DNA of 64,000 bases, from assembly GCF_002214605.1 (NCBI RefSeq), contig NZ_CP015193.1, forward strand, positions 1,468,978 to 1,532,977. Direction: 5' to 3'. The stretch is from Thermococcus chitonophagus. Its GTDB lineage: Archaea > Methanobacteriota_B > Thermococci > Thermococcales > Thermococcaceae. Below are positions 36,802 to 63,153 of this stretch, one piece after another. Position numbers and translations under genes: made by a program. The stretch's first letter is position 1. Each line of letters starts with the position of its first letter. The notes beneath the pieces were generated by a model that was not told the DNA's origin, did not search any database, and saw only the letters and a program-made list of their open reading frames with translations.

Positions 36802-38112
36802 TCAGTCCCTCCAGTCCAGTAGCCTTTTTTCTCCCTCAAGCTCCTTATACCTTTTCACGTCCATGGTTATCTCAAGCGTTCCCAGATATTCGCCTTTTTC
36901 GTTCTTCACTGGGACATACAGAATATAAACAAACTTATCCCCCAGTTTAAGCCAAAATTCAGCCTTATCTTTCCTGCCATCCTTGAAAGCTTTAAGTATC
37001 TTATTAACTATATGAACGCTCTTTGGAGGATGGCAAAGCTGGACAGGCCTCCCTAGGATATTTAAAGGCCTTGCAAAAATCCTCTCTCCTGGAGAAAAGA
37101 AGCGAACTCTATCGTTCTTATCTACAAAAGTTATATCGAGAGGGAGTGCCTCAAATATTGCTTTTAGTTCTTCAACGCTTAAATAGCCAGTCCCCAGGTC
37201 AATGTCCCCAGGTCTCTTCACGTCCCCACTCTTATCCGGTTGTAGGCCGTACTTTTCTATGGCTTTTCTGACTTCTTGGGGCAGACTTAATATTTTTTCT
37301 GCAGAGAGTTCGGGATCGATCTGCCATGGATAAATAGGCTCAACTCCAGGATCCCATTCCCCAGGCCTCACCTTATAGTAGCCAAATTCCTCCTCTTGCA
37401 TCCTTATAGCCTTCCATTCTCCATCCCCAAGGAGGGCTTCTACTGTTGGATAAAGGATATTGTCCTCCCTGAAAACCATGTCAATTAAGGCTCTTGATGC
37501 TTCTTGTGCCTCTCTAATGAACTTCTCGTAATCCTTTTTAGCGAGGAATTCTTGAAGTCTCTTTATCATGAACCTTATTTCATCATGCTTCGTCCACAGG
37601 ACTGTAGCAACTGCAGTAAGACCAAGCCTTTCTATGTAGGGAAAGAGGAGCATCTCCTCCCTGCTGTAGTGCGTAAATCCAATGAGCCTTAAGCTCTTGA
37701 CGAGCTCCTCTAGAACTTCAATCATTTGTTTTCTCACTGCTTCATCTTGAGTCTTGCTGAGGGTTTGGGCGTACAGGTTTAGCATCTCTGCATCTTTTAT
37801 TATCTCCCGGTTCTCAAAGTATAACGTTTTTAGAGGGTGACCATCAGGCAAATGGGAGTAATTGCCAGCTCCTGCTACTGATTCCCTAAATACCTCAACA
37901 TGCAGATCGCACATCTTAGCTATGTCCTTAACGGAGATTCCTTCTTTCACAAGCTCCTGCTCTATGAGAGGTATTTCAAGAGGGGATATTGAAGCAAGTA
38001 CTTCCCTAAACTCCTCCTTCAGCTCTTCAACGTCGGCACCCTCATGGAGTTTCAATAGTAGTCCCTTGAGCTTCTCCTTCTTTACCTCAAAATTTTTCAA
38101 CCCTTCAGTCAT
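36802..38112 (-). CDS. DUF438 protein with hemerythrin-like and PAS domains
   Basis: 436 residues in three parts: DUF438 (about 1-75), a hemerythrin-like four-helix domain (about 85-235) with histidines in 'FTHYSREEMLLFPYIE' and 'VLWTKHDEIRFM', and a C-terminal PAS domain (about 315-425) with 'LPLDITFVDKNDRVRFFSP' and 'LGRPVQLCHPPKSV'. Such proteins are thought to sense oxygen, nitric oxide or redox state through iron or haem. It has no output domain. A dyad at 38123-38136 lies between its TATA box and its ATG. Confidence 0.85.
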   Translation of the reverse strand: MTEGLKNFEVKKEKLKGLLLKLHEGADVEELKEEFREVLASISPLEIPLIEQELVKEGISVKDIAKMCDLHVEVFRESVAGAGNYSHLPDGHPLKTLYFENREIIKDAEMLNLYAQTLSKTQDEAVRKQMIEVLEELVKSLRLIGFTHYSREEMLLFPYIERLGLTAVATVLWTKHDEIRFMIKRLQEFLAKKDYEKFIREAQEASRALIDMVFREDNILYPTVEALLGDGEWKAIRMQEEEFGYYKVRPGEWDPGVEPIYPWQIDPELSAEKILSLPQEVRKAIEKYGLQPDKSGDVKRPGDIDLGTGYLSVEELKAIFEALPLDITFVDKNDRVRFFSPGERIFARPLNILGRPVQLCHPPKSVHIVNKILKAFKDGRKDKAEFWLKLGDKFVYILYVPVKNEKGEYLGTLEITMDVKRYKELEGEKRLLDWRD

Positions 38113-46681: not shown

Positions 46682-48025
46682 CTAGTTGGTCTGAATTAGT
46701 CTAGTTAAACTCTGGCTTAGCTCTAAGAGGAAATTTTCCCAACCCTCATTTTTTAACAGATTATGATTGAGATTTATTGTCCTGATTATGAGAGGAATAT
46801 CTTTTCTGCCTGTACGTGTTTCTACTTCAAAATGCCATTCTTTTTCTACATGTTCTTCCAGAGTTGGATAGATTAAGAGGACACCATCGGCATTCCATTT
46901 TGTCGCATATGCATACATCTGATACAAATCCGATTGAGAAACTCCCAGTTTTTTCTCTTCCTTTGTTAAAAGCTTGTACTTTAAATCGATCACATATCTT
47001 TTTCCTTGTACTTCAATGGTAATGTCAGGAATTAACTTAAAGTAGCCCCTGGAATACTCTCTATCCATTAAAAGATAACCAATTTCGTGCTGTGGGATTA
47101 TCTTTGCATCTTGGAATTCCTCTGTAAGAACTTTTTCTTTGTTACTGATTATTGTATTTGTTACAAATTTCTCAAAGAGTTTCTCCATAGGAATCAAAAA
47201 TGTGAAAGTCTCAATTTTTGAATACTGAAGCTTTACGATAGAATTTTGAATGAAAATTTTGGCAAGCTCAACATAAGGTTTGAAAATCTTATTCAAACGA
47301 TGGAAATGAATTCTTTCAATCTCTTCTAGGCTAATTGGTACTAAAGAAACAGAATCAAATATGCTCATAATATTTTTCAGCATTCTGTAGTTATCTGGGG
47401 ACTCCGTAATCCTTGACATTAGATACGCCGCATATTTCAGTGTTCTGTTAAGAGGATTGTCTATGAATTTATCATTGAAATTGCAGGGAATAATATGTCT
47501 TCTTGCTGGATGCAATGAGTACTTTTGAAAGTTTATCTGCCCTTTGACATACCTAAGCTCATCATGCCTATGCATGTATTGGTAATATCTATGAGACTTG
47601 AGGATAGAGAGAAGACCACATGCATAAATCCTAATCAGCACTTCTAGAAAATCAGCCTTTGCTAAACTAACACTTGCGATATCTGCATCGGTTATTGGGA
47701 TATCTCCAGCGATTGAAAGCATTTTGAGTAGATTACCCATGACAAGAGATTTCGAGCGCTCTAGCTCTTCATAGCTCTTTGTTCTTAACAATTTCGGAAA
47801 AATTTGCAATGTCAAACCTTTAAATGAGAACACTCCAACTTTGTTTTTTGGCTTAATTGTTTTTAGGGTAATATCGAGGAACTGCAACTTCTCGTTAATC
47901 TTATCAAGTTCTCTTACGAGTTTTTCAGGAAGTACTAATGTTTTTGTATCTTCTTGGAATGTTGGCCTATCTCCACCAATACTGTAAAAAATAGGAACAA
48001 ACTCAAAGAGATCTATTGTTTTCAC
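46682..48025 (-). CDS. mcrC: McrC-type restriction endonuclease subunit
   Basis: About 447 residues. The N-terminal half has the McrC adaptor pattern (PKLLRTKSYEELER; FLEVLIRIYACGLL) and the C-terminal nuclease shows the PD-(D/E)XK site 'LIPDITIEVQGKRYVIDLKYK' shape (P-D about residue 337, D-x-K about 350). McrC docks on the McrB hexamer, stimulates its GTPase and cuts DNA. The GTG at 48025 with GGTGA five bases upstream is a better start than the GTG at 48034. It is the last gene of the defence operon, 19 bases after mcrB. Confidence 0.88.
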   Translation of the reverse strand: MKTIDLFEFVPIFYSIGGDRPTFQEDTKTLVLPEKLVRELDKINEKLQFLDITLKTIKPKNKVGVFSFKGLTLQIFPKLLRTKSYEELERSKSLVMGNLLKMLSIAGDIPITDADIASVSLAKADFLEVLIRIYACGLLSILKSHRYYQYMHRHDELRYVKGQINFQKYSLHPARRHIIPCNFNDKFIDNPLNRTLKYAAYLMSRITESPDNYRMLKNIMSIFDSVSLVPISLEEIERIHFHRLNKIFKPYVELAKIFIQNSIVKLQYSKIETFTFLIPMEKLFEKFVTNTIISNKEKVLTEEFQDAKIIPQHEIGYLLMDREYSRGYFKLIPDITIEVQGKRYVIDLKYKLLTKEEKKLGVSQSDLYQMYAYATKWNADGVLLIYPTLEEHVEKEWHFEVETRTGRKDIPLIIRTINLNHNLLKNEGWENFLLELSQSLTRLIQTN

Positions 48026-48043
48026 TGCACTCACCGTATTTCA

Positions 48044-50935
48044 CTAGCTTTCTGCTAGATTTTGAAGAATCTCTACAAATTTTTCATTTGAAATCTCATC
48101 CATTGTGTAAAATTCAACATAATTTTCATTGGATTCTTTAATGAAAGTGTTATCTCCAAGTATTTCCTTGAGCTTATCTGGAGCATCATAGAAATACTCT
48201 TGGATTAGTGGGAGTATCTCATAGAACCATATGAGTTTGAGCACTTCTATGAATTTGTCTTTGTTGTTCAGCACTTTTTGAAGCTCAAAATAATAACTAT
48301 GGCCGATTTGATGATCTCTGTCGTATTTTTCTTTGATCTTTTGATTTAGGGACTTTAATGCGCTTAATGCTATTTTTGCAATCTCTTTTACTTCGTCTCC
48401 CGCTTTATCTACTATCTCTTTTTCGATAATCTCATAGTTCGGCATGACTTCAATAAATGCAAATCTTCTCCTTAAAGCAACGTCAATTAGTGCTATGCTC
48501 CTATCTGCTGTATTCATGGTGCCGACTATGTAAAGATTAGGGGGAACCCCAAAGCTTTTCTTGGAATAGGGAAGTGTTACGGTAGTTTCATTTGGTGCAA
48601 ACAAGCGCTTGTCCATTTCAAGAAGTGTTATTAGCTCTCCAAATATCTTAGCTATGTCTCCGCGGTTTATCTCGTCGATTATCAAATAAAATCTTGGAAA
48701 GTCTTCATCTTTTAGTTTTTCAAGGACTTTTTGCCTCTCTTTCTCTGTTAATGTAGGGACTCCAGTTGTTGAAAGCCATTCTTTATTCACTCCCGCAAAG
48801 GCTAACAGAGCATTAAGGGCATTTCTACAAATTCTCTTAAAGACACCCTCCTCTATGTAGAATGTAAGCTCTTTCTTACCGGTTTCCTCATCTTTAATAG
48901 TTGTTGGTTTAATACCCTCAACGAAATCTTCGTATGCAAAGGAAGGATGAAATGTTACAAATTCAACTGCATTGTACTCTACTGTTGTAGACTGCTGAAT
49001 AATATTTAGGTCTTGGAACTTTTCTCCGCCAATCATTTCAGCTATTCTCTGTGCTAGTTCATATGGAAGCTCAAAAAGCGTGCCTCTTAATTTCTGCTTT
49101 AATGGTGACCATGATGATAATAACTCATCTTCTTTTAACTCCCTGAATGTGGGTCCATCAATGAGTTTTATTATCTTAAACCATGCTTTATCTTCTTCAG
49201 CTTTTGTGCATTCAGCAATAGCTCGTATTTTCATATGTGGTTGAGCGAAATAAACAAACGCTATGTCCCCCTCACTCACAGTTTCAAACGCAGATTTTGT
49301 CTTTCCCGAAAATTCTTCTTCAAGACCTTTGTGGACGCTAGCAAGGTCGTACTTGGTAGAACTCATGGTTAAGAGATAGTAATTACGATCTTGGGAGAGT
49401 TGAGATGCTCCTTTAGGAATGATATGTTTTTCACTAGGAAGTTTCATTTTGACATACTGTTTTGCAATCCAGGTTTTCCCAGTACCAGGAGGTCCGTAAA
49501 GAATAACTTGGCCTTTCCTGAGAAGGTTAATATCCAAAAATTTGAACTCTGGTAGTATTTCGGCTTGTTCTAAACTTGTGGAGGTATCTACTGGAGGCAC
49601 TTTGTGCATTTCTTCGTGTTCTTGACCATATTTAACAAGGTAGTATGCGAGCTCTAACATATTGCCCACTTTTAATTTTTCAGCAGTTTTTGAAAGGAGT
49701 GTCAAGAATTCTGCAGTCCTTTTAACTGATCTGCTACCTTTTGGATAATAAAACTTAGGATCGTCAAACCCTAAAATCCTAACAACTTTCTCATTTGCTG
49801 TATTGGCATGTACTGGCAAGAATAAATCCGGCCGAAGTAGCGTTGCTAAGCTTGTAATTACCGTACCTCCTGCATAGGGAACATGCCATACTTCCTTCCA
49901 TTCATTACTTTTTAGAACATCTCCAATATCCTCAGCTTGTGTAAGCCTCTTCAAGAAGCTCTTCATTCTTTTGTCACTCAACAATTCCATTGTCTGGGAC
50001 ATATCCTTGGTGTACATGACAGTGTAGCCTTCTTGAAATACCCTCTTCCATTTTGGATCTCTCTCCACTTTTGAGATCAGTTGATAAAGCTTAGATATCT
50101 CTTCTTTTGTAACCCCTTCTTTATCTAAGAGTTCCAAGAGATAATTAGCTGTATCTTCGAGTGTTTTCATGAATTCATCCTCAATTCTAGACCACTCTTG
50201 TTGGTACATATTTACCAGTGGTTCTAGAACATTAACTAGCTTCTCAACTCTCCAATCGACTTTATCAAAATAATTGAACATCATATCAATTTCTAAGTTA
50301 ATTGGAATGTTGTTGTCGGATAACTTACCGACTTTAGAAAGATACCTCTCTTTGATAATTTCAAAAGCATTTTTGAAATCATTGTAGTCATTAATATCAA
50401 ACTCTATGAACTCTCTAACGAACTCCCGAGAACATGTATTGTAGATTGGAGCTTCCTCAATGTGGAGTTTACCATAAAGCTCTCCCAGAATATTACGTAG
50501 CAATCCTTTAAGTGCCTTAAAGTTAGTTGTCTCTTTAGGTTTAGATTGATAAATGAGATCATAGATTTCATTAATCCATTCTTTGTTGAATTCATGAGAA
50601 GAAGTAATTTGTGAGATTATCTCTTTCAGCTTTAATATTTGCTCATTATTGGCTGACTCAATAAATGCTGGTAAGATTCGTGTATTTTGAGCCCAAAGTG
50701 GTCGTTCTTTTTTGCCACTAAATAATTCTCTGAGAAGTCCTCTAAGTTTTTCAACGTCATTTTCTTGGATAATCTCTGCCACTATCTCTTTTGTCTTCAT
50801 AGTAGTTTTCAACCAATCAGATTCCTCTGTTAGATCATAATGAACGTATTTCTTTCCTTTTTTGTTTACAATATTTTTCCATGTTTCTAACTTTTTATCA
50901 AGCTCCCCTAATTTGTCCTCTTTTAATTTTGCCAT
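48044..50935 (-). CDS. mcrB: McrB-type GTP-driven AAA+ motor with inserted EVE/YTH-like domain
   Basis: 963 residues from the ATG at 50935 (GGGAGGAG five bases before it). Numbered from the upstream ATG at 50950: residues 1-450 are helical and unrecognised; Walker A 'LYGPPGTGKTW' at 486-493; 'TFHPSFAYEDFVEG' at 665-680, an McrB hallmark; Walker B 'YLIIDEINRGDIAK' at 755-768; sensor 'MNTADRSIALID' at 812-823; and 'LRRRF'. Between Walker A and the HPS motif lies an extra block of about 135 residues (508-645) that looks like an EVE/PUA-type base-flipping domain ('NYYLLTMSSTKYDL', 'VSEGDIAFVYFAQ', 'IIKLIDGPTFRELKEDEL'). It probably recognises modified DNA for McrC. Confidence 0.88.
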   Translation of the reverse strand: MAKLKEDKLGELDKKLETWKNIVNKKGKKYVHYDLTEESDWLKTTMKTKEIVAEIIQENDVEKLRGLLRELFSGKKERPLWAQNTRILPAFIESANNEQILKLKEIISQITSSHEFNKEWINEIYDLIYQSKPKETTNFKALKGLLRNILGELYGKLHIEEAPIYNTCSREFVREFIEFDINDYNDFKNAFEIIKERYLSKVGKLSDNNIPINLEIDMMFNYFDKVDWRVEKLVNVLEPLVNMYQQEWSRIEDEFMKTLEDTANYLLELLDKEGVTKEEISKLYQLISKVERDPKWKRVFQEGYTVMYTKDMSQTMELLSDKRMKSFLKRLTQAEDIGDVLKSNEWKEVWHVPYAGGTVITSLATLLRPDLFLPVHANTANEKVVRILGFDDPKFYYPKGSRSVKRTAEFLTLLSKTAEKLKVGNMLELAYYLVKYGQEHEEMHKVPPVDTSTSLEQAEILPEFKFLDINLLRKGQVILYGPPGTGKTWIAKQYVKMKLPSEKHIIPKGASQLSQDRNYYLLTMSSTKYDLASVHKGLEEEFSGKTKSAFETVSEGDIAFVYFAQPHMKIRAIAECTKAEEDKAWFKIIKLIDGPTFRELKEDELLSSWSPLKQKLRGTLFELPYELAQRIAEMIGGEKFQDLNIIQQSTTVEYNAVEFVTFHPSFAYEDFVEGIKPTTIKDEETGKKELTFYIEEGVFKRICRNALNALLAFAGVNKEWLSTTGVPTLTEKERQKVLEKLKDEDFPRFYLIIDEINRGDIAKIFGELITLLEMDKRLFAPNETTVTLPYSKKSFGVPPNLYIVGTMNTADRSIALIDVALRRRFAFIEVMPNYEIIEKEIVDKAGDEVKEIAKIALSALKSLNQKIKEKYDRDHQIGHSYYFELQKVLNNKDKFIEVLKLIWFYEILPLIQEYFYDAPDKLKEILGDNTFIKESNENYVEFYTMDEISNEKFVEILQNLAES

Positions 50936-51008
50936 AAATACTCCTCCCATTTTGAATTAACAAAATTTTCCAAAGATTCTACAGACTCTCATAGATTGAC
51001 CTAACAAC

Positions 51009-53867
51009 CTAACCGACATAAAGTACATATCGTTTTTTCGTTTTAATGTCTAAAGTTTCCAATGGATTTCTGAATCTAAAGAGCATGGGTTCCTTTCCAA
51101 TATTTACAACCAAATAAAGCCAATAGTTAGAAGCATGGTCTTCGGCGAATTTATGCTCGGCTTCTGTAAGTTCGGCCCATAAAGAAAACCCCTTATGCCC
51201 CTTGACTTCAATGTATCTGACTTCACCAGTGACTAAATCTCTACTCAAAATGTCATAGTGTTCTTCTAAAGACACATTTTTCACAAGCCATTTGCTTGGA
51301 TCATTTCCATATTTCCTAATGTATCTCTGTTTTTCATACTCGATAGCTATTCTCATTGCTTCTTTTTCTATCTTAAGTATTTCTTCTGTTGGAGAATTTC
51401 TTTCCCATTTTTCTTCTCCACTTTCAACTTCTCTAATGTATTTGAATATGGCTATCTCTTCAACTGTTGTCTTATCAAAGTCTAATGGAAAGAACACTTG
51501 CCCAGCCTTTAAGGGTTTACGGAATCGCTCTTCATATTTTTCCCATTTAAAGGAGATTTCTTGAAGTAATTTCCTTATGGTGCTTTTTATTTTACCAATA
51601 TCTCTAAATTTTTCAATGCTTGTTTGGTTAGTTTCTTCAACACTCTCATATGGGACAGTTGTTAATATTTGTGTACTTATGTCTTTAAGAGCTTCGAGGA
51701 GTTTGAGCCCATAGAGAATGTCTCCCTTCTTGTCAATAGCTACAGGAATTTCAATCAGCGTTTGAGAGGAATTCTTTAGTTTTACTAAGTAGATTCTCCT
51801 AAGTGTTTCTTCCCCCTTTACAAAAAGAATCATTTTGCTTCCAATGTCCGTATTGCCTTTTAATAGTAGGGCATTAAGCTCCTTCCATAGATTTATTGCT
51901 TTTTTATCGCTCCCATAGATGAATAACGAAAGCCATTCTTGAAGCTCTTTCTCAACTTGTTTTCTAGAAAGATAATCTGAGCCAAGATATTTTGAAAGTT
52001 CACTTCTGATTTTCTCCCCCTTAATAACTGGAAACACACTTTTGGCTCTTAATCTTGCAGAGAGTTGGTTTATCATTGCTAATAACTCCCTAACATAAAT
52101 ACCAAGATTGCCCTTTATTGATTCCAAAACAAGCGTGTATTCATTGATTTTCTTCCTTTTCTTTGGATCGAGATTTAGTAATCCTAAATCGGCTCTCCAT
52201 AAGTTTTCTGCACTTGCAATGTAGACCTTACTGCCTACAAGTTGGGGAGGGTTATTCATGGCTTTGTCAATATTCATTAACTTATGATAAAGGTTTTCTA
52301 ATACATCTCTATCCATTTTATTTGATAGAAATACGGTGTACACATAAGATTCTTTTTTCTGACCTAAACGCCATATTCTTCCCATTCTCTGTTCGAGCTT
52401 GATTGGGCTCCATGGGGCTTCATAATTTATCAAGACATTTGCAACTTGGAGATTCAGACCTTCTCCAGCAACATCTGTCGCTATCAATATCTTTGCACCA
52501 TTCTCTTGTTCGAATCTCTCTTTGATATTATGAACATCCCCTTTATTTTTGCCAGAAATTGTTACAATATCCGTTTCATGGATTCCCAGATATTTGGGGA
52601 GATTGTTCTTGAGATATTCTAAAGTGTCCAAGTATTCTGTAAAAATCACAATTTTCTCTCCTCTGTCAAGATGATACTTGACAAGTTTTGCTACGTTTTT
52701 TATTTTGCTGTCTTTTTCCTGAGCTTTTCTTGCTAACTCCAAGATTCCTCTCAATCTCTCTATTTGTCTCGATGTCAAAATATCGGCGTAAGCTTCAACT
52801 ATTTTGTTCAGCTCCTCATCAATTTCATCTGCTTCAATTTCTAATTCGTCATAGCCAAGAGCAAATATTTTCTGTAAGATATCTTCTACTTTTTTTGGGT
52901 GTTCTTTTCCTTTGCTTTTTGATATCATCCTGTTGAGTGTCTGAATTGAGGCATAATAACTTGAACTTGCTCTCTTTCTTAGGATAACAGCAAGCAAAGA
53001 TAGTGGAATATTATCAGGGGCAATCATCTCTGTTAGAATCTTTTGAAGTTCTGAGAAGTACTCTTTTTCAACATCGCTGATATCAACTATGAAGGAATGA
53101 ACATGACACTTCCTGAATATTTCCTCCCCTTCAGCTTGGTTTACTATCCCCTTGGTTCTCCTGAATACAAGTGTTTCATGTGTTACCCTGTAAAACTTTG
53201 GAGCATCCAATGCATCGTAATTCTCGGTAAGTGTTGGGTCTAAGTATCTAAGTCTGTTTAGATAGTCTTTGTAGTCTCCTCTATGAGGAGTCGCAGAAAG
53301 CAGAATTATGTTTCTATGTTTATTGCTGGTTAATCTTCTCAATAAATAGTCTCTTTGTGTGCCAAGCGTTGCATTGTGGGCTTCGTCCACTATTATTAAA
53401 TCCCAGCCAACAGAATCGATAATATCTGGATATCTCTTAGCTAAATCAATTGACATTATGTAGTAATATGCCTTGTCTACTCCACTTTTGAAAAATGTGT
53501 TCTTTAACTGAGAGCCACTTGAGACAATCCAAGGCATGCCTCCAACTCTTTTAACTTCAGAGACCCATTGTTCGATAAGGATTTTTGGGGTTAATATTAG
53601 GACCTTTCTAATACCATCTTGAAGTTCGAGATACTTTGCTATTGCAAGGGCTTCTATGGTTTTCCCCAATCCAATTTCATCAGCTATCAGTACTCTAATT
53701 GGTCTAACAGTCATTAGATGCAGAAGCAAATCAGCTTGATGTAAGAATGGGATTATCTTTTGTTTTGAGATAGGATTTGTAATTGCAAAAAAGAATGCAA
53801 TAGGATTACTCCTAATGATTCTATTTGCTAAATAAACTTTAAATTCACTTTCAAAACCTCTAATCAC
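51009..53867 (-). CDS. SNF2-family helicase with DUF3883-like C-terminus
   Basis: 952 residues. Helicase motifs: 'IADEIGLGKTIEAL' (Walker A, 63-70), 'LIIVDEAHNATLG' (DEAH, 161-164), 'LLSATPHRGD' (192), 'TDVAGEGLNLQVAN' (motif V, about 464-477) and 'EQRMGRIWRLGQ' (motif VI, about 492-503). The last 88 residues ('EEHYDILSRDL', 'GEVRYIEVKGHKG', 'WLYLVVNIG') look like DUF3883, a nuclease-like domain common in defence helicases such as DISARM DrmD. The start is GTG with GGGTGA six bases before; it overlaps the 145-residue gene by eight bases. Confidence 0.9.
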   Translation of the reverse strand: MIRGFESEFKVYLANRIIRSNPIAFFFAITNPISKQKIIPFLHQADLLLHLMTVRPIRVLIADEIGLGKTIEALAIAKYLELQDGIRKVLILTPKILIEQWVSEVKRVGGMPWIVSSGSQLKNTFFKSGVDKAYYYIMSIDLAKRYPDIIDSVGWDLIIVDEAHNATLGTQRDYLLRRLTSNKHRNIILLSATPHRGDYKDYLNRLRYLDPTLTENYDALDAPKFYRVTHETLVFRRTKGIVNQAEGEEIFRKCHVHSFIVDISDVEKEYFSELQKILTEMIAPDNIPLSLLAVILRKRASSSYYASIQTLNRMISKSKGKEHPKKVEDILQKIFALGYDELEIEADEIDEELNKIVEAYADILTSRQIERLRGILELARKAQEKDSKIKNVAKLVKYHLDRGEKIVIFTEYLDTLEYLKNNLPKYLGIHETDIVTISGKNKGDVHNIKERFEQENGAKILIATDVAGEGLNLQVANVLINYEAPWSPIKLEQRMGRIWRLGQKKESYVYTVFLSNKMDRDVLENLYHKLMNIDKAMNNPPQLVGSKVYIASAENLWRADLGLLNLDPKKRKKINEYTLVLESIKGNLGIYVRELLAMINQLSARLRAKSVFPVIKGEKIRSELSKYLGSDYLSRKQVEKELQEWLSLFIYGSDKKAINLWKELNALLLKGNTDIGSKMILFVKGEETLRRIYLVKLKNSSQTLIEIPVAIDKKGDILYGLKLLEALKDISTQILTTVPYESVEETNQTSIEKFRDIGKIKSTIRKLLQEISFKWEKYEERFRKPLKAGQVFFPLDFDKTTVEEIAIFKYIREVESGEEKWERNSPTEEILKIEKEAMRIAIEYEKQRYIRKYGNDPSKWLVKNVSLEEHYDILSRDLVTGEVRYIEVKGHKGFSLWAELTEAEHKFAEDHASNYWLYLVVNIGKEPMLFRFRNPLETLDIKTKKRYVLYVG

Positions 53868-54297
53868 AGTAAATCACCCTAAAACACTTTGATATTCTCC
53901 TAACTCGTTTTCTTCCTCCCTCCCAATAGGCATTCCTAAAAGTTGAAGCCCAGTATCTAAGAGCCAAAATCGGCAACTCCATAACTGTTCTTTCAATTTC
54001 CCTACGCTCAGTTTCAGACTTCACAAATTGTGAAACCATGGCATAGACAAAAAGTCTTAAGTAGTTCTCGTCATTTTCTCCCTCTAGGACTTTTCCTTTG
54101 ATATTAAAGCCAAGCTTTCTTGCAAAATCAAGAAATTCTGGAAGAAATACCCTTGCTTTTCCTTCAATCTTTCCTTTGACATATTTGTTCTCCCCTTCAA
54201 TAGGTAAAAAAGGAATAAACTCAGCCAATTTCTGCTCCTTTTCAAATAGCAGTTTCATAGGTTTGATGTACTTTAATTTTATCAGATATTTTGTCAT
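53860..54297 (-). CDS. Unrecognised 145-residue protein of the defence operon
   Basis: A basic protein with a beta-rich first half (VKGKIEGKARVFLPEFLDFARKLG) and a helical second half ('LRLFVYAMVSQFVKSETERREIERTVMELP', 'RYWASTFRNAYWEGG'). The end is rich in arginine (GGRKRVRRISK). No known motif is visible. It begins five bases after the DUF499 ATPase and overlaps the helicase, so it is co-translated with both and is probably a subunit of the same complex. It occupies the place where small DUF3780-type proteins occur in related clusters, but I cannot show homology. Confidence 0.7.
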   Translation of the reverse strand: MTKYLIKLKYIKPMKLLFEKEQKLAEFIPFLPIEGENKYVKGKIEGKARVFLPEFLDFARKLGFNIKGKVLEGENDENYLRLFVYAMVSQFVKSETERREIERTVMELPILALRYWASTFRNAYWEGGRKRVRRISKCFRVIYCD

Positions 54298-54302
54298 TTA
54301 CC

Positions 54303-57300
54303 CTACCTCCTAAGTTCAACTACAAACGTCACTTTGTCATTTAACACAGACAACTTTTTGAGTAGTAGTTCTGTAATTGTAATTTCTCTTTGGATCGTGA
54401 CATCTACATTAAGTTCGTCGCTTCCATCTAAATATTCCTTTGAATCTTCAATTACTTGAGTAGCTACATCAAGTGGAATTCTGTCCAAGTCCATAGAAAC
54501 TCTTGAACCATTGGCTTTTATTACAGCAGTTCCTGACAGTATGTGTTCACTACCAATAGCATCCTGCAATATTTTGAGATGTTCAAGTCTCCTGATGTCT
54601 TCAATTTTTATTAATGTCCCTCCAATATGCTCTTCTGTGAGTTTTCTAGTTCGTATGGTGGGGCTGATTACTTCTACTCTTAGGGTAGCTACATGCTCCA
54701 CATCTTTACTTTCAGCATAAAGCCTGAATTCGTCGCTTTCTCTTGGAGCCTTTAGATGCCAAACAGTCTCGAAAGGCACGATTCCATTTGTTTCTTTAAG
54801 TTTTCCATAATCAACTTTCAGCTTGACTTCAAATGATTTATTTGGATCCTTTGGAGCTATTACAACTTTCACTTCAATGAGCTCTTCAGGATGTGCTGAA
54901 ACATAAGCTGGAGAAATTTCAATTTCGAAGTCGCTGAAATCATCTGAGAGTTCTTCTTCAGTAATGACAACGACAAAATTTCCTTCAACAAGCATGTTAA
55001 TGTCTTCATCTTTGATTGAAATATTTTCCTTATCTCCGACTATGTCTTTGAGTCTTATTCTCTGTCCGTCTATCTCAAGAAATACTTCAACTTTTCTTCT
55101 GATTTTCTTCTTTCCTCTCTCGATTGTCTTTGTTTCCTCCCTTTGCAGTAGAGAACTCACTTGGGCCTCAAGCGCAATTCTTTTTGGCAAAATCTTGTCA
55201 TCAAGAGTTATTTGATGAATTGTGGCTTGCTCCGTATTCTCTTTTTTGATTTCACCATTTACTATTACTATTTCCTTGACATCTTTGAATACTAACTTGC
55301 CACTTTTTGTTAAGATTCCTATTTCAAGTCTTGAAAGACCCTCTTTGAGGGCTTCTTTTATCCGCTCATCCTCAACCATTGGTAACGCTGGATTCATGCG
55401 GAAGTAGTTTCGTATCTCTCCAAAAGTGTAAGGTCTTGAGCTTAGGTCAATTCCTACAATGTTTAGCATTGCCTTTAACTCATCAAACGAAAGATATTCT
55501 GCAACTTTTTCAACTTCCGGTGAAATTAGGACTGAATAAACAGTTTCAAGTATTGATGTTGAAGTTGTTGAAGCTTCAGTTGCTTTTATACTGTCTCGGT
55601 ATCCTTCATTTACCGGAAATGCAACTTTTCTGAAGGATTGTACTATTGTGGTGAACAAATCATCTTTAGCAGCATTTTCTATGTGCTCAATCATTGATTG
55701 CTGTATCTTTACAACGTTCTTCCCATAGTCGGAGTAGATTTTGTCAACTTCTTTTTTAACCTCTTTACAGGCTTCAACTTTCGCGAAAGCTTCTAGAATT
55801 GAATTAAATCCTTGCGGCGTTGGATACGTGACGACTATTGTATTCCTGAATTTCCTTGTTCCTCCCTTATGTTTAAGGATCAAATCCTCAAGCAGTTCTT
55901 CATCAACATACTCATAATAGAGTGCTAGAAGCTTGTAGCTATCGTCATCAACAATGTCTCCCATTCGAGGATCAAAGATAACGTCTTTCCGTTCAAATAG
56001 AGTAATCTTGATTTGCTCCCCTTTAGACTTTTTCCCTTTTCCTGGTTTACCTTCAATAGCCTTCTTAATTTCTGCAGTGACTTTTTCGATAAGTTCTCCT
56101 TTTTTATTTCTGAGAAGTTCGTCCTTCTTTGCGAGAACCATTTGATTCACATTTGCTATTCTCCAAACCCAGAAAACATTGTACCTATCATCATAGTTTA
56201 AGTGGATAAAGTAGTTCCTTGATATTATTTCTTCAATGGCATCATGAATCTTTGTTGAGTCCCACTCCATTGCTTCAAAAATCTCTACCTCGTAAATTCC
56301 CCTTGATATTTTGAACTTGTCTGGAAATCCTGTTAGAGGTGTTGGAGAATCGTAGGGATACGTTGAAAGGAATATGTATTCATAAATAATCTTCACGAGC
56401 TCTGGTTGTGGGTATTTCTTTAGGACTTTTGGATTAAGGTCAACATCAACAACTCCACCATAATTAGCATAATTCTCTTGGAAAAGAAGGCCTCTCAGGT
56501 CGTTATCAAAGACATCAATATGATGGGGCATTACTAATGAATATTCTTTTTCCTCCCTGTGTATTTTTCTAACAACTTTCCTTGTGAGCTTTATCAGATC
56601 TCTTGTCTTTTGTAGTCCAGGCACTCTTTCAAGAATTGTTCTCATTATTGTGAAGTAATCCGGATGGAATGGGTATGTAACCTCAAGCTCTCTCAGGAAG
56701 TCTCTTGTATCACCGAAAATTTCTTCATTTGCCATATCAACCATGTATCTCTCAATGATCTTGATTTTGTTATTTGGATCAATTTTTTCGAAAATTCTTC
56801 TTTTGAGAACTTCAATTAAATCATTGCTCCCCCTCTCGGTTCTTAAAGGAGCAACGAGTTCCCCACTAAGTTTTGCAACAGCCTTCCACAGAGCTTCAAG
56901 ATAATCCTTATCATAGGCTTTCTCAGTTTCTCTTAAAACACCTCTTTCTACTTCAATTGGCAAAGTGACTATTAGAACATTATCGGTCCCAATTATTGCC
57001 TTTGAAAGTCGCTCTAAAAATATTGGAATGTTATTGGCATAGTTCTTGGCATCCTCTCTGTTGCTTCTTCTCAAGTTATTTCCATAGTCTGCAACTTCAT
57101 CAATCATTATCAGCGTTTTGCCTTCTTTGAGAAGTTCTCTCAAGCTGTTTATGTCTGGGACTGTTAAACTCTCATCGTATGCTCTTATGTCAGCGTATCT
57201 ACCAAGGAGATGAGCCAAATAGCCCCAGATAGTGTGGACTTTGTAAATTCCAAAGTCAAGTGGTTTAATTGGATTTCCTATGTCTCCCATACCATAAATA

Positions 57301-57692
57301 ACAGCAATATTGACTTTGCCCAATGATTTTATTCTCTGTGCAATATGCTCTAGTCTCTTTCTCTTCATAATGTCGTAATCTCTCAAAACCTCCTCATCAA
57401 GGAGAGCATCGGGATGATTTAGAATGTGATACAGAGTTACCAATGTGTGTGTCTTACCTCCACCAAAGAGCGAGTAAACCGTGAATACGTTAGTTCCTTT
57501 TCCCTCAAGTGTTGATAGAACTTTCTCAATCAAATCTAGCATTGAATCGCTGAAATATGTTCTTCTAAAGAACTCCTTTGCATCAGAATAAATCTTATGT
57601 GCTCTTCCACTTACCACATCGTTAAGCTCTGGAGCAGAAAATTCATCAAGTGTTTCATCCATAACATCATTCCATATCTTTTCCCTTAGCAT
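54303..57692 (-). CDS. DUF499 (COG1483-type) large AAA+ ATPase, anti-phage associated
   Basis: About 1,129 residues. Walker A 'SLFGGGKTHTLV' (residues 94-105 counted from the TTG at 57752) and Walker B 'TLIMIDEVADYG' (213-224) are the DUF499 hallmarks, with a conserved 'TYPFHPDYF' further on. The C-terminal 350 residues are beta-rich (immunoglobulin- or Ku-like strands; not assigned). I prefer the ATG at 57692, which has GGTGA five bases upstream and fits the usual N-terminus; the TTG at 57752 overlaps the previous gene and is also possible. In other genomes DUF499 ATPases travel with DUF1156 methylases and SNF2 helicases in defence clusters. Confidence 0.9.
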   Translation of the reverse strand: MLREKIWNDVMDETLDEFSAPELNDVVSGRAHKIYSDAKEFFRRTYFSDSMLDLIEKVLSTLEGKGTNVFTVYSLFGGGKTHTLVTLYHILNHPDALLDEEVLRDYDIMKRKRLEHIAQRIKSLGKVNIAVIYGMGDIGNPIKPLDFGIYKVHTIWGYLAHLLGRYADIRAYDESLTVPDINSLRELLKEGKTLIMIDEVADYGNNLRRSNREDAKNYANNIPIFLERLSKAIIGTDNVLIVTLPIEVERGVLRETEKAYDKDYLEALWKAVAKLSGELVAPLRTERGSNDLIEVLKRRIFEKIDPNNKIKIIERYMVDMANEEIFGDTRDFLRELEVTYPFHPDYFTIMRTILERVPGLQKTRDLIKLTRKVVRKIHREEKEYSLVMPHHIDVFDNDLRGLLFQENYANYGGVVDVDLNPKVLKKYPQPELVKIIYEYIFLSTYPYDSPTPLTGFPDKFKISRGIYEVEIFEAMEWDSTKIHDAIEEIISRNYFIHLNYDDRYNVFWVWRIANVNQMVLAKKDELLRNKKGELIEKVTAEIKKAIEGKPGKGKKSKGEQIKITLFERKDVIFDPRMGDIVDDDSYKLLALYYEYVDEELLEDLILKHKGGTRKFRNTIVVTYPTPQGFNSILEAFAKVEACKEVKKEVDKIYSDYGKNVVKIQQSMIEHIENAAKDDLFTTIVQSFRKVAFPVNEGYRDSIKATEASTTSTSILETVYSVLISPEVEKVAEYLSFDELKAMLNIVGIDLSSRPYTFGEIRNYFRMNPALPMVEDERIKEALKEGLSRLEIGILTKSGKLVFKDVKEIVIVNGEIKKENTEQATIHQITLDDKILPKRIALEAQVSSLLQREETKTIERGKKKIRRKVEVFLEIDGQRIRLKDIVGDKENISIKDEDINMLVEGNFVVVITEEELSDDFSDFEIEISPAYVSAHPEELIEVKVVIAPKDPNKSFEVKLKVDYGKLKETNGIVPFETVWHLKAPRESDEFRLYAESKDVEHVATLRVEVISPTIRTRKLTEEHIGGTLIKIEDIRRLEHLKILQDAIGSEHILSGTAVIKANGSRVSMDLDRIPLDVATQVIEDSKEYLDGSDELNVDVTIQREITITELLLKKLSVLNDKVTFVVELRR

Positions 57693-57744
57693 TTCACTCA
57701 CCAGAGTAACTTTGTTTCCAATCTTTTTATGTTCTTCGGATAGA

Positions 57745-58071
57745 TTATCCAAATATCTTCCTTTTGAGCTTCTTAGCTAAGTACAATATGCTAATTAACA
57801 TGTGTATGCTCCATTCCCAGGATTCAAAGAGCCCTCTAAGGAAATATAGTCCAATTATCCATCCCATTAGATATCCAGTTGACCAGTAGTTCATCTTTAG
57901 GAAAAGGGAGTAAAGAGAAACAATTGCAACAAGATAGGCTACTATGTATCCCATTTGTGAGGTTATTCCAAGCAATGGTGGGATAACTCTTGTAATTAGG
58001 TAATATCCAACTATTCCTGTACCTGCCACTGCTGCGGCTCTCCTAAAGCCATGTTTTATTCCACCCGCCAT
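57745..58071 (-). CDS. Small membrane protein of the defence operon
   Basis: 108 residues with about four hydrophobic segments (GIVGYYLITRVIPPLLG; MGYIVAYLVAIVSLYSLFL; YWSTGYLMGWIIGLYFL; MLISILYLA) and basic ends (KLKRKIFG). It follows the nucleotidyltransferase by 13 bases. No family recognised. In a defence operon a compact multi-helix membrane protein could be an effector that permeabilises the membrane, but it could equally be a passenger. Confidence 0.6.
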   Translation of the reverse strand: MAGGIKHGFRRAAAVAGTGIVGYYLITRVIPPLLGITSQMGYIVAYLVAIVSLYSLFLKMNYWSTGYLMGWIIGLYFLRGLFESWEWSIHMLISILYLAKKLKRKIFG

Positions 58072-58084
58072 GCAACCACCATTA

Positions 58085-58927
58085 TCAAGACTTTATTATT
58101 GTTTCAAGCTCTCTTAGCTTTCTCTCAAAGAGCTTCTCCTCAAAGACTTTGAAGCCAACGTAGTCGGCCAGCATTACCCTAATGTCCTCTTTGTACTGAG
58201 TTCTCTTTAAAACTTCATATATTGAAGTTGGCTTGTAATTCTTAGCCTTGTAGAGTTCCCTTAGAACGTCCTTCCTGAGATAAAAGTCCTTCTCACGCCA
58301 CGCATTTCTTTTCTTGTAGAAGCCCATTACGAGAGAGTAAATGTCAATTATGTCCTTCCAGTGCTTGTCCCTCTTGTCATCTGGATAATCTCCAAGATTA
58401 GTGTAAATATCGAACTTTAAAGCCAAGACTGCTTCAGGAAAAGCCACATCAACTTCTCCTCCAGCAATTAAATTTTTGTTAAAGTCTCGAACTTCAAAGT
58501 GAACTCTCGAATAATACCGATTTCTGAAAATTGATGAAGCAAATGGAGTGTCAAAGCTCAATTGTGAGGGCTTTTCGTCAAAGAGGAAGTCAACCTTCAC
58601 CTCCTCCCTTACGATTAAGCTTTTGATGGGCTTTGCAAATCTGAAGCCAGCACTTTGAAAGCCGAGGTTCTTCATAACCTCCCTTATCTCCTCAAAGCTT
58701 TCAGCCTTTGCGAGGAAGTCAATGTCAATTGAAGGGACGCCGCTGTAACCCAAAACGTTATCCACCCAGTAGTACACACTCCAACCGCCAACAAGGACAA
58801 CCTTCCCCCTCAACTCCTCGGCAATCTTGAACATTGCATTTATTGACTCTCTAATAACATCATTGTTGTAGCTCCTCAAATCATAAACCTCAAGGAATAT
58901 GTCCTCAGAAAGCTCAAGCCTCTTCAT
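58085..58927 (-). CDS. AbiEii-like nucleotidyltransferase toxin
   Basis: About 280 residues from the ATG at 58927 (GGTGAG four bases before). The nucleotidyltransferase core has 'VLVGGWSVYYW' (about 46-56) and 'PSIDIDFLAKA' (about 75), the G-G...D-x-D pattern of the AbiEii/AbiGii family, and a third acidic residue around 'EVKVDFLFDEKP'. AbiEii toxins block growth of phage-infected cells by adding nucleotides to RNA (tRNA in a related toxin). It overlaps the end of the wHTH gene by 14 bases, the usual antitoxin-then-toxin order. Confidence 0.75.
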   Translation of the reverse strand: MKRLELSEDIFLEVYDLRSYNNDVIRESINAMFKIAEELRGKVVLVGGWSVYYWVDNVLGYSGVPSIDIDFLAKAESFEEIREVMKNLGFQSAGFRFAKPIKSLIVREEVKVDFLFDEKPSQLSFDTPFASSIFRNRYYSRVHFEVRDFNKNLIAGGEVDVAFPEAVLALKFDIYTNLGDYPDDKRDKHWKDIIDIYSLVMGFYKKRNAWREKDFYLRKDVLRELYKAKNYKPTSIYEVLKRTQYKEDIRVMLADYVGFKVFEEKLFERKLRELETIIKS

Positions 58928-59516
58928 TCTTCTCACCTTCAATTATGGAAATGACTGTTTCAAAAACATCGTCAAAGAGCCTCGTGTACGTTCCCTGGAC
59001 AAGCATGTCCGCCAAAATCATTCCCCAGCTTGGAATGTAATAACCGTTGAGTTCTTTCCTAATCTTGAAGTAGAAGTCATCGTAAATGTAAACCTTGAAG
59101 GGATAGCCTTCGGGATCCTTAAACTTCATAAGCTCTTTGAAGGTTTTTTCACTTGCGTAGAGGATTCCGCTTGCAGGGCTGATTATCTTGCCAAGCAGCC
59201 AGAGGGCAGAATTCCCAGAAAACAGAACCAAATTCCTCATGTCATAATCTGGAACGAGCTTGATAGTTATTGGACTTAGAGAATTCAGTATTACCTCCTT
59301 ATCCTTTGCCCACTTGAATATTAGCCCTTTTCTGTCCAAAAGTATGATCCTTCCATCCGATGCTGTTGTGAGGTAGCCTTCCCTTTTTAGGGCTCTTATT
59401 GTTTGGTAGGTGTAAATGTAGTTCAGCTCAGCTAATCTCGCAACTTCTGGAATCCGAATTCCTGTGTAGTCAAATACCACACTGTAAATTTTCTCCCTTG
59501 ATACTGGTGGTTTCAT
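58914..59516 (-). CDS. AbiEi-like winged-helix antitoxin
   Basis: 200 residues. Residues 1-65 form a winged helix ('FDYTGIRIPEVARLAELN', 'YTYQTIRALKREGYL', then 'DGRIILL'), and the remainder is an alpha/beta domain of the kind found in AbiEi antitoxins, though the match is weak. The ATG is preceded by a perfect 19-bp inverted repeat (59527-59575). Known AbiEi proteins bind inverted repeats in their own promoters, which fits. It is followed directly by the nucleotidyltransferase. Confidence 0.7.
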   Translation of the reverse strand: MKPPVSREKIYSVVFDYTGIRIPEVARLAELNYIYTYQTIRALKREGYLTTASDGRIILLDRKGLIFKWAKDKEVILNSLSPITIKLVPDYDMRNLVLFSGNSALWLLGKIISPASGILYASEKTFKELMKFKDPEGYPFKVYIYDDFYFKIRKELNGYYIPSWGMILADMLVQGTYTRLFDDVFETVISIIEGEKNEEA

Positions 59517-59526
59517 GGTGTATCAC

Positions 59527-59575
59527 ATTAGTAATATTAGTAAATCCTTTTTAAACATTTACTAATATTACTAAT
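59527..59575. promoter_or_regulatory. Perfect 19-bp inverted repeat before the AbiE-like pair
   Basis: ATTAGTAATATTAGTAAAT (59527-59545), 11-base spacer, and its exact reverse complement at 59557-59575. Each arm itself holds ACTAAT twice. The left arm ends ten bases from the antitoxin ATG; the right arm overlaps the stop codon of the preceding gene. Probable autoregulatory operator and internal promoter of the toxin-antitoxin pair; as RNA it could also form a hairpin. Confidence 0.75.
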
Positions 59576-59936
59576 GCAGTAGTTTTGGTAAGACTTGAAT
59601 AAGAAGACTGCCAAGCGAAATTCCTACTGCAATCTTTGAGTATCTCAGGGCTTTTTTATTAATGAAATCCTGGTAATAAAAGTTTAATCCCTTTTCTGTG
59701 ATCCTAATCTCATAATCCATGCTGGGATTCTTTAGCTCGTCTCTGGAAGTTCGTCCTATTCCAACAATAAGTGGGTAGTCAGTTGCAAGTAGTTCATTAT
59801 TGAGCATCTCTTCTAATAATTGGACATCAAGCTCAGATCTAAACCTTTTGTGAAACTCAGATATCTTCTTTGGATACTCAATAAAAAATTTTAAAATTTC
59901 TAATCTGCGTTTAATTGGATCATTTTTCCGCCCCAT
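59571..59936 (-). CDS. Winged-helix protein with C-terminal membrane helix
   Basis: 121 residues. The first 95 look like a winged helix of the archaeal PadR/MarR-like kind ('RRLEILKFFIEYPKKISEFHKRF', 'YEIRITEKGLNFYYQDFI'). The end (about 100-118: KIAVGISLGSLLIQVLPKL) is a single hydrophobic helix. A membrane-tethered DNA-binding protein in a defence operon is unusual. It lies 55 bases after the methylase gene and before the AbiE pair. It may regulate the operon or sense the membrane; no family name is given. Confidence 0.65.
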   Translation of the reverse strand: MGRKNDPIKRRLEILKFFIEYPKKISEFHKRFRSELDVQLLEEMLNNELLATDYPLIVGIGRTSRDELKNPSMDYEIRITEKGLNFYYQDFINKKALRYSKIAVGISLGSLLIQVLPKLLH

Positions 59937-59991
59937 TTTGATCCCTTAGATAAATTTTAAAATAATGAAAAATTCAAATAAAACGAAAGAA

Positions 59992-62900
59992 TTAGCTCCC
60001 AATAATCTCCATCAATGTCTTCTGAGGCTTCTTTATGAGTTCGAGCTTCTCTGCAATGTCCTCAGCAAGCTTGAACTCTACATCGTCCCATCTTAGGTTC
60101 TTTGCCATGCTCGTGAATATCAAAGCTAAGTTTGTAGCTTCTTCGACAAAACTCTGGTACTTCTGCTTGAGTTCGTCGTATCTTCTCCTGAACTCGCTCT
60201 TTGGATGCCTCTTTGCGTAATACTCAAGGAGATGTAAAGTATCAATCGCGTTCTTTGGCTTTGGACTTGCAATATCAATACCCCTGCTCTTTAAGAAAGC
60301 TTCAAGCTTAGTGAGGTTGTCGCTCTGCGGTGAGTTGAGCTGGTAATACTTTGAGCTTCCCTCTTTCTTCTCCAAGAGTATCTTGCTACTGATTAGCTCC
60401 CTTGAGTTTGTCTCTGTTGCTATTGAGAGCAAGACAACGTCATTTGATGAAACCTTTGCCTTTCCAAAGAGAAGCTTGGCTAAGAGGTAGAAGAGAGCTT
60501 CCTTTGATGAGACTCTGCCGTGGACTTCTTGAGCTAAGGCTTTTGCAATGGCTTGGGCTGATGCGGGATAAACATATTTTTCAAGAATTTCAAGCACGGG
60601 GAGTTTGGTTCCATACCTCTGAACTTCCTCATATTCAGTGATTACGCTCAAAGCTGATGCTATTACCCCATAAAGCAGGTCCAAGCCAGTATAGCCGTGA
60701 GCTAAAAGCTGTTTGGCTTTTTCTTCAGCAACAAGCTGTATCTTTTCCGTAAAGCGGACTTTTTTGACTTCGCCCGTGTATGGATCTTTGTATTCAACAA
60801 AGTCTCTAACATCAACAACTTTCTTGCCATCTCTCTTGACCTTACGCCAGACTGCTATGATAGAAGTATCTAACGAGAGCTTTCCCTGTCTCATGATACT
60901 CGAACCAAGCTCAGTATTTAGGGGAATTGCAGTGGTGATTTGCAACTTTGCACCTTGCCAGCCCGCTTCAATTAGAGTAGCCCAAGCATCAAGGGATGTG
61001 TGGGCATAATAGGTTGCCAAGATTCCGTCATCTTTAAGATTGTTCTTCATTGCTATGAAAGCTTGGGTAAAGAGATTTTTGAAATGTTCCTTGGCGAGCT
61101 TTTCTTTCTCTTTCTCAGTATAGAATCTTGCAGAGAACTCTGAGACCTCTTTACTCGCAAACTCCTTCCACTGGACTTCCCTCTCCCTGTACTTCTTGCC
61201 AACCTTCTTGAAGAAAGCCTCTCTGTGAAATCTGGGGACAAGCTTGTTTCCTTCAACGTCACTCAAGGCTCTCTTGAGCCAAACGTAGTAGAAGTCGCTA
61301 AGCTCTGCATAGGGAACGTCAATTGAGTAAGGTGGGTCAGTGACAATCACATCAAAGGATTTATCGAAGCTTAGAGAGGTTGCATCACTCTGCATTACTT
61401 CGACTTTGCTAAATGTGTGAAGGTTTGGGGCAAGAGATGAAATAAGATAATTCAAAGCCCCCATAACTGAAGCAGTTGCTTTTGAGATGGAATACGAATT
61501 ACCTTGTATGTACAAGACGTTTGTATCGCCCCAGTTCCATACCATTGCGATTCCTCTGAATGATAATGCTCCTTGGACTTTGTTAGGTAATAACGAACCT
61601 GAGGACCATCTTGTGGATAAAGTGTTGTAATTTATTATTTTCGTCTGAGCAACACTCAAATACGTCGCTATTGCTTCTGCATACTTGAACGCTTCCTCTT
61701 CGCTCCAGCCCTCCTTCAGCTTCTCTTCCTCAACTTTCTTGCCGACCTCTCTTATGAGCTTCACTATTTTTACAAGTGTGAGGAGCTGGCGAGGGTTGAA
61801 GAGCTTGTACCATTGATCAAAGCCCCAACCAATTATCTGCAATGCACCGAAGAGTAAGCTACCATAGGGCGGAACGGGTTCTCTCGGAATATCTGGATCT
61901 CCCTTCTTCAACAGCTCCTTGACTTTCTCCTTAGCTTTCTCCAATTTTGCGTTGTCTTCTTTGGTTGCTGGTTCAAAGATTAAATCGTTGTTCTCAATTT
62001 TCACTTTAACAAGCAGTCGTTGCCTTGCATAATTCTCATCACCCTGGTGATATTTTCTGAGGGCGAACTTGACGTAAAATTCTCCTTCTCCCTTCTTTCT
62101 AGTGTAGTGATTGCCGCTCTCATCGACGAACCTCATGACGTTTCCACAGTTTAAGCAGAAAGCCTGTTGTCTCCTTGACTCCATATTGCTCTTTGGAACT
62201 TCAAAGACAACAGCCTCTTTACCATCAATCTTTCTAATCTTTGCATCAACTTCTCCTTTCTCGATCTTAGGTTTGAGCTTCTTGACTATTTCTTCATCTT
62301 CAAAGACTATCTCTCCTTTTCTTGTGTCAACTTTGGCGTTTGAAACATCGCCCACTATCTGGTTTAAATCAACAACCTCAATCTCAATGCCATTCTCGGT
62401 TCTCTTGGGCTTCATGTAAGCTAAGCGCTGATACTTCCCTTTGCTGTCTTTAACCCTTGCGAGCCACCAGTTACCCACTATTGGTGTCCACTTTCCACAA
62501 TGGGGACATTTAACTTCCCAAGTGCCAATGTAAACAGCAACATCATCGTCATAAAGCTCTCTGATCTCTGGGTCGTTTTTAAGCTGCTCAGTAATCCAGT
62601 TGCCCCACTTCGCAACATCATAAACTAAAGCGGGAACTTCAACACTTGTGATTATCTTCTTCTTTGCCTCTCGTGCGTAGCTGTCTAACCCTAAAGCTTC
62701 AAGCTCCTTAACTGGAACTTTCACCTTCAGCCTTCCAAACTTCTTTGGATACTCAAGAACAGCCTTGAGGAAAACGTAAGCCGTTGGTAATAACTCAACA
62801 GCGGTAACATCCAAACCCAAGCGAAGCCCTTCAAGCGGAATACTTCCAAAGCCAGCAAAAGGATCTAAAAGCTTTTTTCCTTCAAAATATTGCTTGTATT

Positions 62901-63153
62901 TATCTGGAATTTGAGGATTAAAACGATGGGGAGTATTTTCATTAAGCCTTATCATCTTTTTAAATTCCTTAGCATCAACATTTTCTGGAAGCAATGCTCC
63001 AGCAATTACAGCTCTTGCTCCAATTAATGGTTTCCTTGTCCACCAGAAGACCATCTCCCAATAAGGTGGTCTCGCCGGACCCTTTTCTTTAGCACTTTTT
63101 TCATTAATTTCCCTTATGGGAAAGTTTGGGCTTTCAAGAAAAGTTCTTTTCAT
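59992..63153 (-). CDS. DUF1156 adenine-type DNA methylase with zinc ribbon (COG1743)
   Basis: 1,053 residues. The DUF1156 start 'FPIREINEKSAKEK' and 'WWTRKPLIGARAVI' is followed by the SAM-binding 'LLDPFAGFGSIPLEGL' (about 95-110), two CxxC pairs 'CPHCGKW' (216) and 'CLNCGNV' (333), and the catalytic 'DVIVTDPPYSIDVPY' (601-615; D-P-P-Y). D-P-P-Y enzymes methylate the amino group of adenine or cytosine. The order of motifs (I before IV with a very large insertion) is that of the family. It is the first gene of the defence operon and presumably protects host DNA. Divergent from the gene at 63314. Confidence 0.92.
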   Translation of the reverse strand: MKRTFLESPNFPIREINEKSAKEKGPARPPYWEMVFWWTRKPLIGARAVIAGALLPENVDAKEFKKMIRLNENTPHRFNPQIPDKYKQYFEGKKLLDPFAGFGSIPLEGLRLGLDVTAVELLPTAYVFLKAVLEYPKKFGRLKVKVPVKELEALGLDSYAREAKKKIITSVEVPALVYDVAKWGNWITEQLKNDPEIRELYDDDVAVYIGTWEVKCPHCGKWTPIVGNWWLARVKDSKGKYQRLAYMKPKRTENGIEIEVVDLNQIVGDVSNAKVDTRKGEIVFEDEEIVKKLKPKIEKGEVDAKIRKIDGKEAVVFEVPKSNMESRRQQAFCLNCGNVMRFVDESGNHYTRKKGEGEFYVKFALRKYHQGDENYARQRLLVKVKIENNDLIFEPATKEDNAKLEKAKEKVKELLKKGDPDIPREPVPPYGSLLFGALQIIGWGFDQWYKLFNPRQLLTLVKIVKLIREVGKKVEEEKLKEGWSEEEAFKYAEAIATYLSVAQTKIINYNTLSTRWSSGSLLPNKVQGALSFRGIAMVWNWGDTNVLYIQGNSYSISKATASVMGALNYLISSLAPNLHTFSKVEVMQSDATSLSFDKSFDVIVTDPPYSIDVPYAELSDFYYVWLKRALSDVEGNKLVPRFHREAFFKKVGKKYREREVQWKEFASKEVSEFSARFYTEKEKEKLAKEHFKNLFTQAFIAMKNNLKDDGILATYYAHTSLDAWATLIEAGWQGAKLQITTAIPLNTELGSSIMRQGKLSLDTSIIAVWRKVKRDGKKVVDVRDFVEYKDPYTGEVKKVRFTEKIQLVAEEKAKQLLAHGYTGLDLLYGVIASALSVITEYEEVQRYGTKLPVLEILEKYVYPASAQAIAKALAQEVHGRVSSKEALFYLLAKLLFGKAKVSSNDVVLLSIATETNSRELISSKILLEKKEGSSKYYQLNSPQSDNLTKLEAFLKSRGIDIASPKPKNAIDTLHLLEYYAKRHPKSEFRRRYDELKQKYQSFVEEATNLALIFTSMAKNLRWDDVEFKLAEDIAEKLELIKKPQKTLMEIIGS

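Follow-up and report, generated by a model that had tools for sequence, protein, structure and literature searches.

A candidate EVE reader domain within the AAA+ motor module of a Thermococcus chitonophagus McrB

Our analysis of a 64,000-nucleotide stretch of the Thermococcus chitonophagus genome (hereafter the window) indicates that it encodes a Type IV McrBC motor that very probably carries its reader of modified bases, an EVE domain, in the α1-β2 loop of the AAA+ GTPase module and not at the N-terminus of McrB. The McrB gene (48044..50950, minus strand) is an open reading frame for a protein of 968 amino acids that matches Pfam AAA_5 (E 2.9e-14), and its structural model matches TgMcrB (6ut5) at an E-value of 1.2e-30. 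In the translation, Walker A (GPPGTGKT, residues 486-493; 49472..49495, minus strand), Walker B (FYLIIDEINRGD, residues 754-765; 48656..48691, minus strand) and the McrB signature NxxD (NTAD, residues 813-816; 48503..48514, minus strand) are all intact, which places the protein among the McrB GTPases of the NxxD clade. Membership of the CoCoNuT group was considered and rejected, since CoCoNuT GTPases need NxD where this protein has NxxD. The McrC partner of a Type IV system lies 9 bases downstream of McrB (46682..48034, minus strand) and is recognised both by Pfam (PF10117, E 1.6e-63) and by a nuclease motif of the PD-(D/E)xK type (PDITIEVQGKRYVIDLKYK, PD...DLK).

The initial annotation of this DNA had pointed to about 135 extra residues between Walker A and the McrB motif (49016-49429, minus strand). 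The extra segment is real: these positions are stop-free and encode residues 508-645 of the McrB frame, and an alignment of 15 McrBs extends the excess to about 149 residues (approximately residues 504-652; 48995..49441, minus strand). Walker A and the FHP motif are 173 residues apart here, versus about 22-32 in the insert-less McrBs of Thermococcaceae; the AAA+ core is continuous without the insert in loci L003, L013, L019 and others, and the alignment includes relatives that share the N-terminus or the motor and lack the insert. The segment begins at the end of helix α1 (residues 492-503; 49442..49477, minus strand; H29-40 in the DSSP assignment of the model) and stops before strand β2, EFVTF (EFVTFHPSFAYEDFVEG; 48950..48964, minus strand), where alignment, model and translation agree that the AAA+ core restarts, to be followed by the McrB motif HPSFAYEDFVEG (residues 668-679; 48914..48949, minus strand). 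Within it, the EVE core takes up about 117 residues (523-639; 49034..49384, minus strand), and the closing block PTFRELKEDELLSSW...LRGTLFELP, which had been singled out as typical of such readers, is present in the translation. In the model, α1 leads into a short strand, which is followed by the barrel, a second strand (E192-197 of the model) and β2, and on this predicted structure the two strands flanking the barrel might pair into a ribbon by which the EVE domain is tethered. The further suggestion that the reader stands directly beside the nucleotide site does not hold. In the standard P-loop fold, α1 starts at the P-loop and crosses to the sheet's opposite edge, so that the insertion point at its far end would be about one helix of 12 residues, or roughly 18 Å, away from the nucleotide. 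By this topology the insert would be attached to the sheet edge opposite the nucleotide, and a second insertion loop, before Walker B, would open on the same edge.

The identity of the insert is supported by both profile and fold. Pfam EVE (PF01878) matched the insert alone over the whole profile (positions 1-145 of 145; E 6.1e-5), with a score of 23.5 bits that is only at the threshold, the curated cut-off being 23 bits; the score was 22.9 bits when the insert was submitted together with the P-loop, and the full-length protein of the related locus L035 scored 24.5 bits at the corresponding place. The motor module was modelled with AlphaFold2 from an alignment of 27 McrBs (mean pLDDT 86.7, pTM 0.74), and in this model the insert, which draws on the three insert-bearing rows, is a mixed barrel (pLDDT about 60-91) with strands at E61-66, E81-85, E100-105, E111-121, E125-133 and E162-165. 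When this model was compared with the PDB by Foldseek, T. gammatolerans McrB ranked first, and two early, founding EVE structures were listed among the AAA+ matches: 2gbs (E 1.0e-6, with probability 1.00 and an rmsd of 2.9 across 135 columns) and 1zce (E 5.5e-6). Structure prediction with fold comparison and an EVE profile search, the checks proposed with the initial annotation, were thus all positive (barrel, 2gbs and 1zce, PF01878), in support of its idea of an EVE-type PUA-like barrel within the AAA+ module. Its label "EVE/YTH-like" survives in its first half: EVE is the sole profile of the two that was matched, there being no YTH family among the Pfam matches to the insert at E <= 10, and no YTH structure was found among the 50 best Foldseek matches, which were mostly AAA+ chains. 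Searching the PDB sequences with a profile of the insert gave no EVE match, so that solved EVE proteins are out of reach by sequence alone, and a direct comparison of this profile with a conserved family of standalone archaeal EVE proteins was not significant. The insert was also missed by a six-frame PF01878 search of the genome, which implies that family-based counts of internal EVE domains would be too low. Overall, we consider it very likely that this McrB carries a modified-base reader inside its motor module.

The N-terminal region of the protein (residues 1-450; 49601..50950, minus strand) is all-helical in its AlphaFold2 model (residues 1-469 have a mean pLDDT of 84.4); it matched no PDB fold at E <= 0.001 and has no recognisable reader. 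A glycosylase-like N-terminus resembling MagIII, OGG1 or EndoIII was rejected, the fold matches being weak (E about 3). L036 (genome G010), an McrB without the insert, shares about 50% identity with the window McrB over residues 2-446, and the first 234 residues are common to L037 (G013), in which an EVE-type domain recognised by eye (GDIVVLKKGINRVVAICKVTGKY..., with no Pfam EVE match) is followed by an uninterrupted motor. This sharing of the N-terminus implies that N-terminal modules and motor inserts combine variously, and the helical region could hold a DNA-binding module.

Directly upstream of McrB and in the same direction is a SNF2-family helicase (DrmD/HmaA/BrxH-like, with a C-terminal NOV_C; 51009..53867, minus strand), and beyond it are a DUF499 ATPase (HmaC-like; 54303..57752, minus strand; PF04465, E 4.9e-238; PADLOC HmaC, 1.2e-44) and a DUF1156 DNA methyltransferase (HmaB-like, of the adenine type by family annotation; 59992..63153, minus strand; PF06634, E 1.8e-11; PADLOC MTase_II, 1178 bits, and HmaB, 9e-53), these two being separated by a gene that weakly resembles AbiEii (58085-58942). 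A set of methyltransferase, DUF499 ATPase and SNF2 helicase marks Hma or DUF499-centred BREX-related systems (PMC12839542), and the likeness here consists of these three components, at 51009-63153, directly upstream of McrBC. The archaeal COG1743-DUF499-SNF2-EVE systems have a standalone EVE gene (PMC7641849), whereas the only EVE seen in the present operon is inside McrB: the six-frame PF01878 search found no separate EVE gene in the operon, and the only other EVE that it found in the genome is about 0.5 Mb away. The G+C content is 34-43% from about position 38000 to 64000, versus 44-50% earlier in the window, and this drop, which lasts to the window's end, suggests that the region is an acquired island.

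Relatives of the insert were found in three of the 115 genomes of the window's phylum, namely that of the window itself, G044 (L035) and G103 (L034), the insert of L034 being 48% identical to that of the window. In both of these Thermococcaceae loci, L035 and L034, EVE lies at the same site as in the window McrB and the insert-bearing motor is fused to a different N-terminus with a YTH/EVE-looking segment (YWVEI...GDVVYHYITSKGP) that resembles a small separate upstream gene (Pfam EVE, just 16 bits). Adjoining mcrBC at both loci are an EVE/YTH-looking small gene and a protein of the metallo-beta-lactamase fold that has an RMMBL domain (L034:4947-7012 and L035:11047-13112), and a gene similar to those beside the L034 and L035 mcrBC lies near mcrB in L036 (11083-12624). 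Among 300 Bacillota genomes, sampled from the phylum of the Paenibacillus locus L053, the McrBs of L208 (G492) and L213 (G745) have an EVE domain at the same α1-β2 site (34.5 and 28.2 bits, respectively); in front of the motor, L213 has no recognised reader, like the window McrB, and L208 has an EVE-like segment by eye. When the cores are placed on a tree, the window McrB pairs with L002 (support 100/100), L208 and L213 fall in a neighbouring clade, and the EVE label needs two changes; EVE at the α1-β2 site may have a single origin. Whole-genome profile searching outperformed the pattern scan of a contig collection of 84,980 species, in which the insert alone gave no match, a failure probably due to overly narrow back-translated patterns; a search for the insert in plasmids also gave no match.

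We compared 87 non-redundant McrB motor cores, a gathered set and not a random sample. The α1-β2 insert exceeds 100 residues in nine of them, four of these being EVE, and in 24 the stretch from the EDFVEG motif to Walker B is longer than 110 residues; neither insert is present in 54 and both occur together in none. The second loop holds its larger, EVE-like inserts (about 190 extra residues) in the bacterial McrBs of L046, L053, L056, L057, L062, L064, L066-L069 and L089, which are EVE-related because profile comparison links them (probability 98%, E 4e-14) to a domain of L151 that is itself a Pfam EVE match (23.7 bits); the comparison of the window insert with these second-site inserts was weak (probability 18%). 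Large inserts of other kinds, not recognised as EVE, occupy the window's EVE loop in L039, L047, L049, L051, L054 and L195. The reading frames of L047 and L049 are almost empty before Walker A, and the insert may be the sole specificity module in these two proteins.

The same loop is also a place at which McrB motors are divided. In three archaeal genomes, the motor is encoded by separate genes broken exactly at the α1-β2 loop (L150:2044-5134 in G076, L151:22-2877 in G064 and L194:2206-5757 in G147). Each locus has two different upstream genes bearing a P-loop, which stop just past Walker A and α1 or, in one case, past the P-loop plus EVE, and one common downstream half, which begins before FITFHPSYSYEEF and has McrC after it. 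One P-loop gene of L150 continues directly into EVE (48.8 bits). A single frameshift was rejected as the cause of the split in L194, where the genes are 64 and 68 bases apart and the common half is provided with an ATG and an AAGGAG-like signal of its own. We propose, tentatively, that the α1-β2 loop might be a general exchange joint of McrB, at which readers are inserted (EVE in the Thermococcaceae and in Bacillota, domains of other kinds elsewhere) and at which some archaea split the protein into a common half and alternative P-loop halves that bear different attached domains, whose combination could give rings of mixed specificity.

How might an internal reader work? In the EVE-HNH enzyme VcaM4I, 5mC or 5hmC is flipped into the EVE pocket (PMC7897488), and for this reason a cytosine modification is our first guess, by analogy, at the likeliest target of the window McrB, whose internal EVE would similarly flip the modified base into its pocket. 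The McrB hexamer would present up to six such readers attached to the motor ring, where their attachment to the core, instead of to a flexible N-terminal arm, would hold them on the ring. Capture of the DNA would then lead to McrC-stimulated GTP hydrolysis and to cutting by McrC, and might either alter hydrolysis through α1 or merely tether the DNA. A rival proposal, close to the mechanism suggested in the initial annotation, that the EVE insert acts as an allosteric gate in which base recognition, passed through α1 to the P-loop, turns GTP hydrolysis on, draws on the covalent connection of the insert to the end of the helix bearing Walker A, seen in both alignment and model, and on the EVE-like segments that L034 and L208 also have before the motor, which may mean that the internal EVE has a role beyond capture. 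We nevertheless regard it as unlikely, because the loop is at the sheet edge far from the nucleotide, because it is McrC that stimulates hydrolysis in the McrBC of known structure (PMC7680126), and because the domains not recognised as EVE that fill the same loop at the other loci named above suggest a site that tolerates insertion and not a dedicated switch.

Less probable still is a reading in which target recognition is not the task of the EVE domain, which would bind RNA or nothing, the choice of target being made by the helical N-terminus or by the adjoining DUF1156/DUF499/SNF2 system. EVE domains bind RNA as well, the EVE profile score is marginal, and the N-terminus shared with the insert-less L036 functions elsewhere without the insert. 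Against this, the insert is 47-48% identical across genomes of two genera despite their differing McrB N-termini, with GDIAFVY, FKIIKL and RGTLF preserved, a sign that the domain itself is under selection. Although other inserts do occur in McrB cores, an ordinary helical AAA+ insertion, the outcome that the initial annotation had named as fatal to its idea, is scarcely conceivable and is ruled out by the strands of the modelled barrel, the matches to EVE structures and the Pfam EVE match. Our preferred reading is still that of an EVE reader carried in the α1-β2 loop.

It has been reported that McrB GTPase domains frequently hold insertions, which are likely specificity domains (Bell et al., 2024; PMC11090510). 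For canonical McrBs, the inserted domain and the loop are unnamed in the accessible part of that paper, whereas here they are EVE and α1-β2; in the accessible literature, supplementary files aside, we found no naming of EVE in this loop of McrB. The window McrB is an instance of this already reported phenomenon and not a new system, the domain and the loop being newly assigned. This turns a general remark on McrB inserts into a testable architecture, specifying which domain and which loop, and raises the question for AAA+ proteins of whether a target reader in a core loop only holds the DNA or also controls hydrolysis; thermophilic McrBs with and without the insert, and otherwise alike, make the comparison practical. 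Among the EVE proteins of defence systems, the most frequent architecture is EVE-McrB (Bell et al., 2020; PMC7641849). Such fusions resemble the window protein in joining EVE to an McrB-type GTPase, but the accessible descriptions have EVE incorporated into McrB homologs (PMC7641849) or, in PcdA, two N-terminal EVEs (PMC10602043), and give no site within the GTPase. The McrBC of T. gammatolerans (YTH-McrB, a 6mA reader; 6ut3-6ut8, 6P0F) likewise shares with the window McrB its AAA+ GTPase core, which is the best fold match, and a reader of the PUA superfamily, and the two probably belong to one archaeal order; in T. gammatolerans, however, that reader is an N-terminal YTH domain and the α1-β2 loop is short, whereas the window McrB has an internal EVE.
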